A stretch of DNA of 20,853 bases from a virus. Where the stretch lies: positions 1 to 20,853 of IMG/VR virus record IMGVR_UViG_3300030103_001890; one strand, written 5' to 3'. Shown here piece by piece: positions 16,949 through 20,853 of this stretch (its first letter is position 1; every line of letters starts with the position of its first letter). The notes under the pieces were generated by a model. That model saw only the letters and a list, made by a program, of their open reading frames with translations, was not told the origin of the DNA and searched no databases. A program made the position numbers and the translations under genes.

Positions 16949-18166
16949 TTATGCTTCAATCAAAGTAGCAAATGCAGTGTCGTTTTGAACAGCATCACCA
17001 TCAACTAAAGAAGTAACAATCATTCTAGTTTCTCCGATTCCACCATTCGTGAATGGATCTACTAAAATATCAAGTCCGCCAAACTGAGCGATGTGAACTT
17101 TAGAGAAGTCACCGAATAAAACATGCTCTTTTCCAGCTACTCCAGATGCAGCAACACCAGAAGAAACGAAAGTAAAGTATCCGTTTGCAGTCTTATCTCT
17201 GTTATCATATAAAGGAGAAACAGAAGAAACTTGTGCTTCAGTTTTTACTTTAGTATAAGCATCCATATCCATCAAGTATGCCATTCTCGCTCCTTCTAAT
17301 TGAACACCATTTCCAAGAACAGTAGTTTCAAGAGCAGTCAATGTAGCAGCAGAAACAGCAGCAGTTGAACCCGCAGCAGCATCAGCAAAGATAGAAGCAG
17401 GAGCGTTAGATACATCACCTGTGTCTAACAAAGCGTTCTCTAATGTAGCAGCAACAGATTGAGCCATATTTCTACGAAGTGCAGCTTCGATACCTGCATT
17501 CTGAACTAATGCTTCAGCAGAAACATTAACGATAGAAATAAGTTTCTTTGGGCTCAAAGTAACACCAGATGCAGTACCATTAGCAGCAGGAGCAGAGCCA
17601 CCCGCTTCTGGAACGAATCCAGAGTTAATTGAACTAAATACAGGGAACTTCATATTGTTAACTCCAGAATAGAAGTTTGCGCCCGCTGATGCTAATACTA
17701 GATTAGCCTCAAGCTGATCCGTCCAAGCCATTACCTCAGTTGCGTTACCAGCAGCAGTTCCAACAGCAGCACGAGTTAACACGCTTGAAGGAATTCCAAT
17801 ACCTTTGAAAGACTGTCCTGTGTAACGAGCTTCGTTTCTCGCTTCTTGGTCCATCTCTTTGATAAGTCCTTCCATTCTTCCAGAGTATGCAGCTTTCATT
17901 GCATCTTGGAAAGAATACTCACGGATTTCTTTTGGAGTGTCCTCAATCTTTTCAGACTTTTCAACTTTACTTGCTTGTAGTGCTTCAAATGAAGCAGCTC
18001 TTTTAGCCATACCCTCTAAAGAGTTAGCTTTTTCATTCAAAGAGTCAAATTCTTTTGTTTCAGAATCAGTAAGCTCACGACCCTCTACTTTCGCAGAGTC
18101 AACGATTGCCTCCATATTTTCCAAAACTGAACCACGCTCTTCTGTGTAGAATTTAGATGTTTTCAT
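16949..18166 (-). CDS. Major capsid protein, HK97 fold (405 aa)
   Basis: The N-terminal region (1-80) is charged and coiled-coil-like (NMEAIVDSAKVEGRELTDSE), as in the HK97 delta/scaffold domain. The capsid fold follows from about 110: GIGIPSSVLTRAAVGTAAGN, MKFPVFSSINSGFVPEAGG, an Ala/Thr-rich centre, LEGARMAYLMDMDAYTKVKT, and a C-terminal LFGDFSKVHIAQFGGLDILV. It forms the icosahedral shell; the N-terminal domain is presumably removed by the upstream protease. The coding sequence is clearly more GC- and Ala-rich than its neighbours, consistent with high expression. A strong terminator follows. Confidence 0.93.
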   Translation of the reverse strand: MKTSKFYTEERGSVLENMEAIVDSAKVEGRELTDSETKEFDSLNEKANSLEGMAKRAASFEALQASKVEKSEKIEDTPKEIREYSFQDAMKAAYSGRMEGLIKEMDQEARNEARYTGQSFKGIGIPSSVLTRAAVGTAAGNATEVMAWTDQLEANLVLASAGANFYSGVNNMKFPVFSSINSGFVPEAGGSAPAANGTASGVTLSPKKLISIVNVSAEALVQNAGIEAALRRNMAQSVAATLENALLDTGDVSNAPASIFADAAAGSTAAVSAATLTALETTVLGNGVQLEGARMAYLMDMDAYTKVKTEAQVSSVSPLYDNRDKTANGYFTFVSSGVAASGVAGKEHVLFGDFSKVHIAQFGGLDILVDPFTNGGIGETRMIVTSLVDGDAVQNDTAFATLIEA

Positions 18167-18189: not shown

Positions 18190-19839
18190 TTACTTTTTAT
18201 TTATGATTGACAAGCGCAACTCTGCTAGAGATCGCTTAGTTAAATCCATTTCCTCCTTCTCTCTTTCTTCCTTCTCTTTGTCAAGGTTTTCTTTCATAAC
18301 CTTTTCTTCTTCTGTTTTTTTCCACTCTTCCATTGAGCGTAAAGCAACTCCTGCTTCCTCAAATGCAGGATAAGTGACTGCCGAAACATCGTATAAACGA
18401 GACACCTTGTTTACTGTTCTGATATTTATACCATCACGAACTTCCCAAGAATCATCCTCAACAACGAATGCAAAAGAACTTTGATTGACCGTTCCGTTTT
18501 TCATCAGCTCTATTAAGTCACGACCTATTGAAGTATTAGCAACCTCAGCTTCATATCTCAAACCTCTTTCATCTGTTGAAAGTCTTAGAGTTCCGTTTGT
18601 TGTTCTTGCTAATGGCAAACCATCGTGATTGATTAAGAAACGCACATCATCTTGTAAGCGACCATCAAAAGCACCTTCAGCGATTATTTCTTTGAAGTTT
18701 CCTAAATCATTAGATAATGTATTAAACACGCTACCATAACCCACAACGACATTAGAATCGCCTTCTTGTCTAAGCTCTAAATCTTGAACATTAAAAGTTC
18801 TAATTTCTTTGTTAGGATTGGAACGATATCCCATTGGCTTTTCCTCTTCATCGTGTCCTTCAATGTGGTCATTCTCTTCCATAACTTCATCATCATTTTT
18901 TGCAAGAGCTTCTTTGATTGCTTCGTGTGATTCAAATGGCATATAGTAAACCTCTCCATCCATTGTATGTTCGTGAAAAAGTTTTTCTCCTTCTGCACCC
19001 ATTTCTTTTGCTAAATCTTCAGCTTCTTGAATAGTGCTAAATAAAGGCATCTCAATACCATCTGTAATCATCGTGCCAACTAGTTCTCTTTTGTCTGTTT
19101 TCATATTTACTAACTTTTTTTCTTCCATCTCTTCCTTTACAGGATGATTGTTTGGAAGTAAATCTGTATCGTGTTTGCCGCCTTGAAACCTTCCTTTTTT
19201 CAATGCAAAAAGAAATGAATTTGTGCGAGCATAACCCCATTGCTCTGGGCTTCCAACATTAGGTCTTACGCTTTGAGGATTGGTTTTGTATGCTCCAATC
19301 CCTCGTTCCATTACTATTTCTAAAGTCTTTAGTGTTACTCTTGGATTCCAAGCAACATCCAAATCTTTTACATCTTCGTTGTGTTCTTTTACTTTATTTT
19401 CTAAAGCTTTTGTTACAGTTGCATTTAACTGTTTTTCTTCCTTCTTTCCTTCTAGCTTTTTTGTCATTTCAAGGATAACATCTTTCATTCCTTGTTCTCC
19501 TAGTATTCCAATCACACCCCATTTCATCTGCGCAACAACACCAGCAATGTTTGAAAGATTTGGTTCTTTATCATCTTGGAATTGTTTGCCATCTTCAAAG
19601 TGTCTTGCAGCCCACGCTTCTCTTTCCTTTATCCATTCTAAAACACTAGGAGTTTCACTTCCTTCTCTTGCTTTTTCCCAAAGCTCAAACGCTTCGTTTC
19701 CTCTTATGTTTCCCCCTGCTTTCCATATTTCAGGAGTTTGTTCTTTTGTATTGTTTGCAAAATCAAAATCAAACTGAGGATAGTTTGAATTGCGCAAACT
19801 TATTTTTTTGTCCTCTCCTTTTGTAGGGAAATTAGTCAT
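18190..19839 (-). CDS. Multidomain prohead protease fusion (549 aa)
   Basis: Residues about 343-503 are an HK97-type prohead protease (family U35-like): VVVGYGSVFNTLSNDLG, FLINHD with H405 and VNQSSFAF with S454/S455 as likely catalytic residues, then VSRLYDVSAVTYPAFEEAGV. A charged coiled-coil tail (503-549) resembles a scaffold. The N-terminal 340 residues are extra: an EAFELWEKAREG / EAWAARHFEDG segment (about 45-130), a segment with GIGAYKTNPQSVRP, WGYARTNSFLFAL and GGKHDTDLLP (about 178-230), and a FSTIQEAEDLAKEMGAEGEK / YYMPFESHEA segment (about 265-310). I have seen these modules in other phages but cannot name them. Typical proteases are about 200 aa. It overlaps the portal gene by 8 nt. 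Confidence 0.9.
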   Translation of the reverse strand: MTNFPTKGEDKKISLRNSNYPQFDFDFANNTKEQTPEIWKAGGNIRGNEAFELWEKAREGSETPSVLEWIKEREAWAARHFEDGKQFQDDKEPNLSNIAGVVAQMKWGVIGILGEQGMKDVILEMTKKLEGKKEEKQLNATVTKALENKVKEHNEDVKDLDVAWNPRVTLKTLEIVMERGIGAYKTNPQSVRPNVGSPEQWGYARTNSFLFALKKGRFQGGKHDTDLLPNNHPVKEEMEEKKLVNMKTDKRELVGTMITDGIEMPLFSTIQEAEDLAKEMGAEGEKLFHEHTMDGEVYYMPFESHEAIKEALAKNDDEVMEENDHIEGHDEEEKPMGYRSNPNKEIRTFNVQDLELRQEGDSNVVVGYGSVFNTLSNDLGNFKEIIAEGAFDGRLQDDVRFLINHDGLPLARTTNGTLRLSTDERGLRYEAEVANTSIGRDLIELMKNGTVNQSSFAFVVEDDSWEVRDGINIRTVNKVSRLYDVSAVTYPAFEEAGVALRSMEEWKKTEEEKVMKENLDKEKEEREKEEMDLTKRSLAELRLSIINKK

Positions 19840-20853
19840 TGTCCTCTACATTAGATTGACCGATTGGAGCATAGTTCATCGGGAAATAGTGTGTATCACC
19901 ATTGTCGATTCTGTTTAAGTTCTCCAATTTTCTTACCTCGTTGATGCTTAAAACTCCCATATCAATCATTTGCTTGTAGAAGTTAGCTCTTGAGTTTGAG
20001 TCACCTCTTAACAATCCCTCAACTTGTATCTTCACATAGTGATTGTCTTGCTCGTTTTCTCTGAACAACTTTCTATTGAACTCTTCCTCTAATGCTACTA
20101 AATAAGGAGTCAAAGTGAATCGAACAAAGTCTATTGATAGTGCTTCAATACTAGAATAGTTTGCGGCTTTCTCTAAATGACCAATCAATGAAAGAGGCAC
20201 TTTGAACAATCTCGCCACCTCTTCAATCTGAAACTTGCGACTCTCTAAAAGTTGCTTATCTTGTGCGTTTATTTTAGTGGGAAAAAAGTCCATCCCCTCT
20301 TCAAGGATTGCTGTCTTGCCTGCCGCATAAGGTCCTTGATATTTATTATTCCAAGAAGTTCTTAGTCTTTCTATTGCCTCTGCACTTAACTTTCCTGGAT
20401 GTTTTATGATGCCACCAACTTGAGCTGAGTTACCAAGCACGCTTGCAGCAGTATCGTTTGCGCTTAATGAAGTTCCAAGCGTTGCGCTTTGTGCTTTCAA
20501 TACACTCTTTCCTTTTAATCCATCAAAGCTCATTCCTACAAAATGCAACATATCCTCTTGACGGATAGTTCCATCTTCACCTTCTATTGAGTAGAACAAA
20601 GCTCCTTCGTGTTTGTACACATCCACTTTATCAGGATCAAGACAAATTAATTCAACAGGTCTTGCGCTGTTATCTCTTACAATTAAGAAGTAAGCATTAC
20701 CCTCAAGCAAAAGATTTGTCAAAATGATTTCCTTGAATGTGTAAGAAGTCATATAGTTGTTCGGCTTTTTTGCTAACAACTTATAAACAGGATGATTCTT
20801 TTGTGAAATCCTATCACCATCCGCCTCTTCTAAAAAAACATTGATAGGTAGTG
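19832..20853 (-). CDS. Portal protein, HK97 type, 5' end outside the window
   Basis: The frame is open to the window edge (20853), starting in LPINVFLEEADGDRI then NHPVYKLLAKKPNNYMTSYT, so this is the portal minus its N-terminus; the internal TTG at 20779 is not the start. Following motifs are typical of HK97 portals: LTNLLLEGNAYFLIVRDN, DMLHFVGMSFDGLKGKS, KLSAEAIERLRTSWNNKYQG, VARLFKVPLSLIGHLEKAAN, and DFVRFTLTPYLVALEEEFNR. It forms the dodecameric DNA entry ring. It is followed by the protease gene with an 8 nt overlap. Terminase should lie upstream. Confidence 0.93.
   Translation of the reverse strand, partial: LPINVFLEEADGDRISQKNHPVYKLLAKKPNNYMTSYTFKEIILTNLLLEGNAYFLIVRDNSARPVELICLDPDKVDVYKHEGALFYSIEGEDGTIRQEDMLHFVGMSFDGLKGKSVLKAQSATLGTSLSANDTAASVLGNSAQVGGIIKHPGKLSAEAIERLRTSWNNKYQGPYAAGKTAILEEGMDFFPTKINAQDKQLLESRKFQIEEVARLFKVPLSLIGHLEKAANYSSIEALSIDFVRFTLTPYLVALEEEFNRKLFRENEQDNHYVKIQVEGLLRGDSNSRANFYKQMIDMGVLSINEVRKLENLNRIDNGDTHYFPMNYAPIGQSNVEDND

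Follow-up and report, generated by a model that had tools for sequence, protein, structure and literature searches.

This locus raises the question of what three modules are doing ahead of a phage prohead protease in a single reading frame. The window, meaning the whole stretch of 20,853 nucleotides analyzed here, covers positions 1 to 20,853 of an IMG/VR virus record of 23,150 bases from a marine phage. On its minus strand, the portal protein gene (19832..20851) is followed by the modular protease gene (18190..19839) and then by the gene for the HK97-fold major capsid protein (MCP; 16949..18166). The protease ORF starts with ATG, overlaps the portal ORF by 8 bases, and encodes 549 aa arranged as module A, module B (DUF5824), module C, and an S78 prohead protease. 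The MCP has its capsid domain at residues 152-400 and, ahead of this fold, an N-terminal delta-like region of its own of ~130 residues. In sister phages, modules A-B are found at the C-terminus of the portal protein.

The protease domain and its upstream modules

The window protein is an HK97-type prohead protease (Peptidase S78), as seen from its profile matches, its His/Ser pair, and its position between the portal and MCP genes. The S78 (HK97/assemblin-type) domain spans residues ~345-510 (18310..18807, minus strand), where Pfam Peptidase_S78 matches residues 353-508 above its gathering score (E 4.8e-43) and NCBIfam proheadase_HK97 matches residues 363-501 (E 1e-29). These matches occupy the last ~38% of the protein, in agreement with the sequence-only reading, which had confined the protease to the last 40 percent. 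The pair His405/Ser455 is invariant across 38 aligned sequences, and the AlphaFold model adds a long C-terminal helix (residues ~511-549; 18193..18309, minus strand). The top PDB match of this model is the T4 gp21 protease (E 1.8e-3). In its protease domain, its fold, and the portal-protease-capsid gene order, the window resembles HK97 gp4 and T4 gp21, neither of which is known to have a 340-residue modular extension. The head maturation protease profiles PHROG 80 and PHROG 9644 show homology to the window protein over residues 313-526; although both are longer than the protease, neither matches A or B. One related locus, L017 (3935-5449; relatives are cited by L number throughout), encodes a protease with an in-frame deletion of ~45-50 residues that include the catalytic His, which is either an assembly error or an inactive copy. 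The strongest synonymous conservation of the window gene lies in its last ~10 codons, at 18193-18225 directly ahead of the capsid gene, and likely marks a translation signal or other regulatory overlap.

Ahead of the protease lie three modules and a linker, all on the minus strand. Module A (residues ~1-132; 19444..19839) is all-helical and has no Pfam or PDB relative. Module B (residues ~138-236; 19132..19428), also all-helical, matches DUF5824 (PF19141) at 25.5 bits against a gathering cut-off of 25 (E 1.6e-5), and the divergent relatives L111, L112, and L113 score well above that cut-off. Module C (residues ~248-312; 18904..19098) has a predicted beta-beta-alpha-beta-beta-alpha order, and the stretch after it (residues ~313-344; 18808..18903) is an acidic and probably disordered linker. 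AlphaFold folds A and B into two distinct helical domains (pLDDT 85); the model of the full protein, with a mean pLDDT of only 67.7, contains low-confidence linkers at residues 243-251 and 317-343, the latter with pLDDT <50.

That the upstream region consists of three separate conserved phage modules had been proposed from the sequence, and comparison bears this out, with conservation well above what chance would give: homologs occur in 183 Salinibacter phage records (A-B-C at ~40% identity, E ~1e-66), in hundreds of IMG/VR contigs in which A-B-C is conserved, and on several head proteins. The borders first suggested (residues 40-130, 170-235, and 250-315) give way to those above, and the concern that the N-terminal segments might have no homologs clearly does not apply. 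Pairwise identity in the close family is highest for A (0.91), followed by B (0.86), C (0.83), and the protease (0.81).

No functional match for modules A, B, or C was found in Pfam, PHROG, NCBIfam, or PDB, and no PDB sequence relative was found for the full protein, the A-B profile, or the P-loop insert of related proteins. A PDB fold search with A-B gave no match below E 1; a sigma-factor region, considered as the A-B fold, reached a middling best Z of 4.3 in VIA-align and was not used. Module C alone had no match among GenBank phages by tblastn, a scan of genome contigs returned only two loci, and a literature search for DUF5824 found no paper.

Exchange of modules and carriers

At the level of sequence comparison, the module borders, the shuffling of modules, and the rule of one carrier per locus are established. 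In close relatives with the same A-B, what follows B is C, an RHIQKIEETD module replacing C, or a P-loop kinase (GxSCSGKST) inserted ahead of C. In L037/L038, the protease is 89% identical to that of the window and A-B-C is entirely replaced by the modules GRIN and GRI2 (names coined here from their motifs), whereas in L009/L034, A-B is 87-91% identical and the protease only 68-69%. This contrast suggests recombination at module borders. In some protease relatives, module A is swapped for GRI2 or dropped, and in Salinibacter phages A-B-C precedes a very divergent S78-like protease within one large protein (open frame of 863 aa). In the Salinibacter phage protein 15_1_37 (WVL96582), A-B-C takes up about residues 160-520 of this frame.

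Modules A (window 19444-19839) and GRI2 (L038 4077-4530) occupy the same place and have a common RH...W pattern. Their hhalign profile alignment is collinear but insignificant, with an E of 0.0028 and a probability of 11%, and the controls gave E values of 0.04-0.58; the two modules are possibly remote homologs. The PHROG 80 profile also matches the GRI2 region of the sibling L038, and PHROG 9644 also matches the P-loop kinase inserted in relatives. In L030, L034, and L067, this insert resembles the PHROG terminase small subunit 4581 and protease 9644 profiles, which suggests that the kinase also moves among head genes.

Across 272 loci, A-B or GRI2-B is placed at the protease N-terminus, the portal C-terminus, the N-terminus of protease-MCP polyproteins (~900-960 aa where A-B leads), on MuF, or in free genes. 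Module A itself also occurs on portal, MuF, and protease-MCP polyproteins, and module B stands alone in Pelagibacter phage HTVC202P and is joined to a cytidylyltransferase in T4-like phages. Among distinct loci with portal and protease both visible, 60 are protease-borne, 25 are portal-borne, and 0 are both; these counts represent distinct gene signatures rather than events that arose independently, and seeding of the searches with A-B under-counts module-free loci. Six loci were scored with modules on neither protein: in five, B is found in a gene of its own or on MuF, and the sixth, L038, has GRI2 on the protease. A portal-C-A-B fusion stands with a bare protease in L167. Free module genes sit exactly between portal and protease (L222, L246, L266, and L270), so that stop loss toward either neighbor explains both fusion types.

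In L333 and L337, different modules are split across two carriers, with GRI2 on the portal and the P-loop kinase on the protease. In L109 (4345-7159), portal-A ends and A-MuF starts in another frame inside module A, giving two overlapping ORFs that reflect either a sequencing error or a frameshift fusion portal-A-MuF. The 974-aa GenBank 'major capsid protein' of Roseobacter phage CRP-821 (L110 3644-6568) is a GRI2-DUF5824-RHI-protease-MCP polyprotein, and Roseobacter phage CRP-822 also has a GRI2-B-protease-MCP polyprotein. Methylophilales phage Melnitz-1 (L113 2849-4801) encodes a DUF5824-cytidylyltransferase fusion, with a DUF6267 protein two genes upstream.

A search seeded with the protease domain alone recovers relatives with the same portal and capsid neighbors and extensions from 12 to 432 aa. 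Proteases 44-64% identical to the window's, with the same portal and MCP neighbors, lack the extension; bare proteases include those of L321 and L322, whose matched segments are 60-64% identical, together with several from more distant relatives. The A-B profile has no match in eight bare-protease records (23-41 kb) or in the 5-kb L321 record, and the B profile has none in the same eight while detecting the positive control L167, although these records may be incomplete. Since A-B was not found in the eight, head building can do without it, and gene comparison shows A-B to be dispensable for the protease as well. The scaffold role that the sequence-only reading had entertained is ruled out as a necessity by the existence of bare-protease relatives that keep their portal and MCP neighbors, and the MCP has an N-terminal region of its own. 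Cargo inside the head is the reading that best fits the modules.

The modules may also be considered as an assembly factor, in which case A-B would bind portal, capsid, or DNA in the prohead and help recruit the protease or organize portal-proximal assembly. Portal and protease would both sit at the portal vertex, which would account for modules on either; the carriers (portal, protease, MuF, and protease-MCP) are all head-assembly proteins, each locus has one carrier, and the module gene, where free, is placed between those of portal and protease. Such a role is nevertheless unlikely, given that related proteases with the same neighbors have no A-B in the records searched, that A can be swapped for GRI2 or dropped, and that a P-loop kinase can be inserted. 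A module fused to the portal could just as well serve in assembly or packaging.

A conserved methionine at the B/C junction

A second start near residue 340, yielding a stand-alone protease, had been named as evidence that would count against the sequence-only reading. No sign of one is seen in that region, where the codons of M319 and M337 are free of synonymous constraint, and comparative support falls instead on residue 246. The Met246 codon (19102..19104, minus strand) is a conserved in-frame ATG at the B/C junction, lies in the low-confidence linker 243-251, and is a candidate nested start for a 304-aa form consisting of C and the protease. It is kept in 14/14 of the closest relatives with the same layout. 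Among divergent proteins with the RHI motif, 24/26 have a Met <=12 residues ahead of it (binomial p 2e-11), a value that overstates the case because the relatives are not independent. Codon-bias-corrected synonymous conservation in the window's family peaks at residues 247-250, second only to the gene end; recombination at this point could be an alternative source of that signal.

In the polyprotein group, long-ORF starts often lie behind an SD (mean duplex energy -4.3), and the junction Met has an SD duplex energy of -5.4 versus a synonymous-codon null of -4.07 (P 0.01, overstated for the same reason). In the window's group, no SD is found at ORF starts (-0.38) or at the junction. The conserved junction Met, together with SD-like sequence in the SD-using relatives, makes a nested short protease product plausible, and Met246 is probably a former protease start that is still used. 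Nested in-frame head genes are known from lambda C/Nu3 and herpes UL26/UL26.5. The window gene is like these in having a candidate internal start within a protease gene, and unlike them in that the internal start would yield the protease, with the passenger borne by the long form.

The same junction could also be an annotation matter, with two coding units (A-B, and C-protease from Met246) in one frame and a fused product that is minor or unimportant. The conserved Met, the SD-like sequence in relatives, the synonymous constraint, and the free-standing module genes of relatives would all accord with this. However, in dozens of divergent loci the frame runs from one unit into the other without a stop. 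This continuity is itself a conserved feature, and a fused product is to be expected; separate units with a negligible fusion are very improbable.

Proposed passengers of the phage head

The reading preferred here, with a probability of roughly 0.55, is that the window protein is an accessory module gene fused to a prohead protease, and that its modules are head-packaged passengers that are cut free and possibly delivered. The carriers of the modules have in common only that they enter the procapsid, which points to passengers. Within this reading, packaging and delivery, cleavage, a start inside the gene, the direction in which the fusion ran, and the function of each module are matters that we infer. 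None of the three modules matches an effector whose function is known or a fold that has been solved, so delivery to the host is argued by analogy.

By this mechanism, the module gene would have lost its stop and read into the protease; in sister phages, it would have been joined to the portal C-terminus instead. Fusion to any protein that enters the procapsid would bring a single A+B (or GRI2+B) set into the head, where the protease would release the passenger by cleavage during maturation. The freed passenger would stay with the DNA and may reach the host, and the retained Met246 start would probably yield some module-free protease, which would hold the passenger dose below the protease dose. 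A more general proposal is tentative: a vehicle-switching passenger system whose cassette (A or GRI2 plus DUF5824, with optional C, RHI, or P-loop kinase) would use one carrier per genome and move between free gene, portal, protease, MuF, and capsid polyprotein, with an internal start setting the dose, release by the protease in the head, and delivery with the DNA.

Packaged polyvalent phage proteins provide one comparison. As described in the relevant portion of Iyer et al. 2017 (PMC5512222), the assemblin-like peptidase invariably sits at the C-terminus, with protein processing during assembly as its presumed task, and effector domains are fused also to portal and MuF. The window protein is similarly multi-domain, lies in a head gene cluster, and has domains that also occur on portal and MuF. 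It combines several unrelated domains (A, B, C, and S78, with the P-loop kinase in relatives), and its assemblin-like peptidase is C-terminal, at residues 345-510 of 549. One difference is that the effector domains listed in that portion of the paper do not include A, B, or C. Relative to the account given there, the present locus and its relatives add the alternation between portal and protease, the free gene between them, and the candidate junction start, with packaging here only inferred. The window gene is best read as a variant of the polyvalent protein with a C-terminal assemblin-like peptidase, and its passenger is probably packaged in the head. A literature search for shuffled N-terminal extensions of prohead proteases found no paper.

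The internal proteins of T4 are diverse passengers that enter the prohead via a common targeting signal and are cut by an assemblin-type protease (PMC3012670, PMC9026906). Their carrier is a short peptide, whereas in the window protein the protease or portal itself would be the carrier. The DUF5824 proteins of T4-like phages have N-termini resembling the T4 capsid-targeting peptide (MKKFSEIIEAR in Melnitz-1 and MITFKKYLEEK in C48C1; the T4 IPI record has MKTFKEFTST), and neighbors of their genes include a run of products with similar starts. The strict pattern matches one Melnitz-1 ORF, and looser patterns give two and six matches, the loosest in 6/357 N-termini versus 2/654 internal Met. With so few matches, the resemblance is used only as a pointer, independent but weak, from a different branch to a passenger role. 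A capsid-targeting peptide is not present in the window protein, whose N-terminus is MTNFPTKGEDKK; starts of that kind were seen only in the DUF5824 proteins of T4-like phages.

The fusion of B to a cytidylyltransferase in T4-like phages would also suit cytoplasmic enzymes or nucleic-acid-binding modules, acting for example on DNA ends before packaging and fused to the protease merely through gene adjacency. Among the profile relatives of the inserted P-loop kinase are terminase small subunit and head protease families, which is compatible with this, as is the small, Lys/Arg-rich free-standing B of HTVC202P. Cytoplasmic modules are nonetheless improbable: fusion has occurred repeatedly to several head proteins and to no replication protein in the HK97-type phages sampled, and module B was not found on plasmids.

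For the passenger reading, Salinibacter phages with the same cassette are a useful case, as a published study includes their virion mass spectrometry (PMC11631230). If the passenger reading is true, common marine-phage genes annotated as 'protease', 'portal', 'major capsid', or 'hypothetical' would each be a passenger with its carrier, and carrier switching would offer a sequence-based route to virion-internal proteins without proteomics. DUF5824 would then become directly testable as a virion component.
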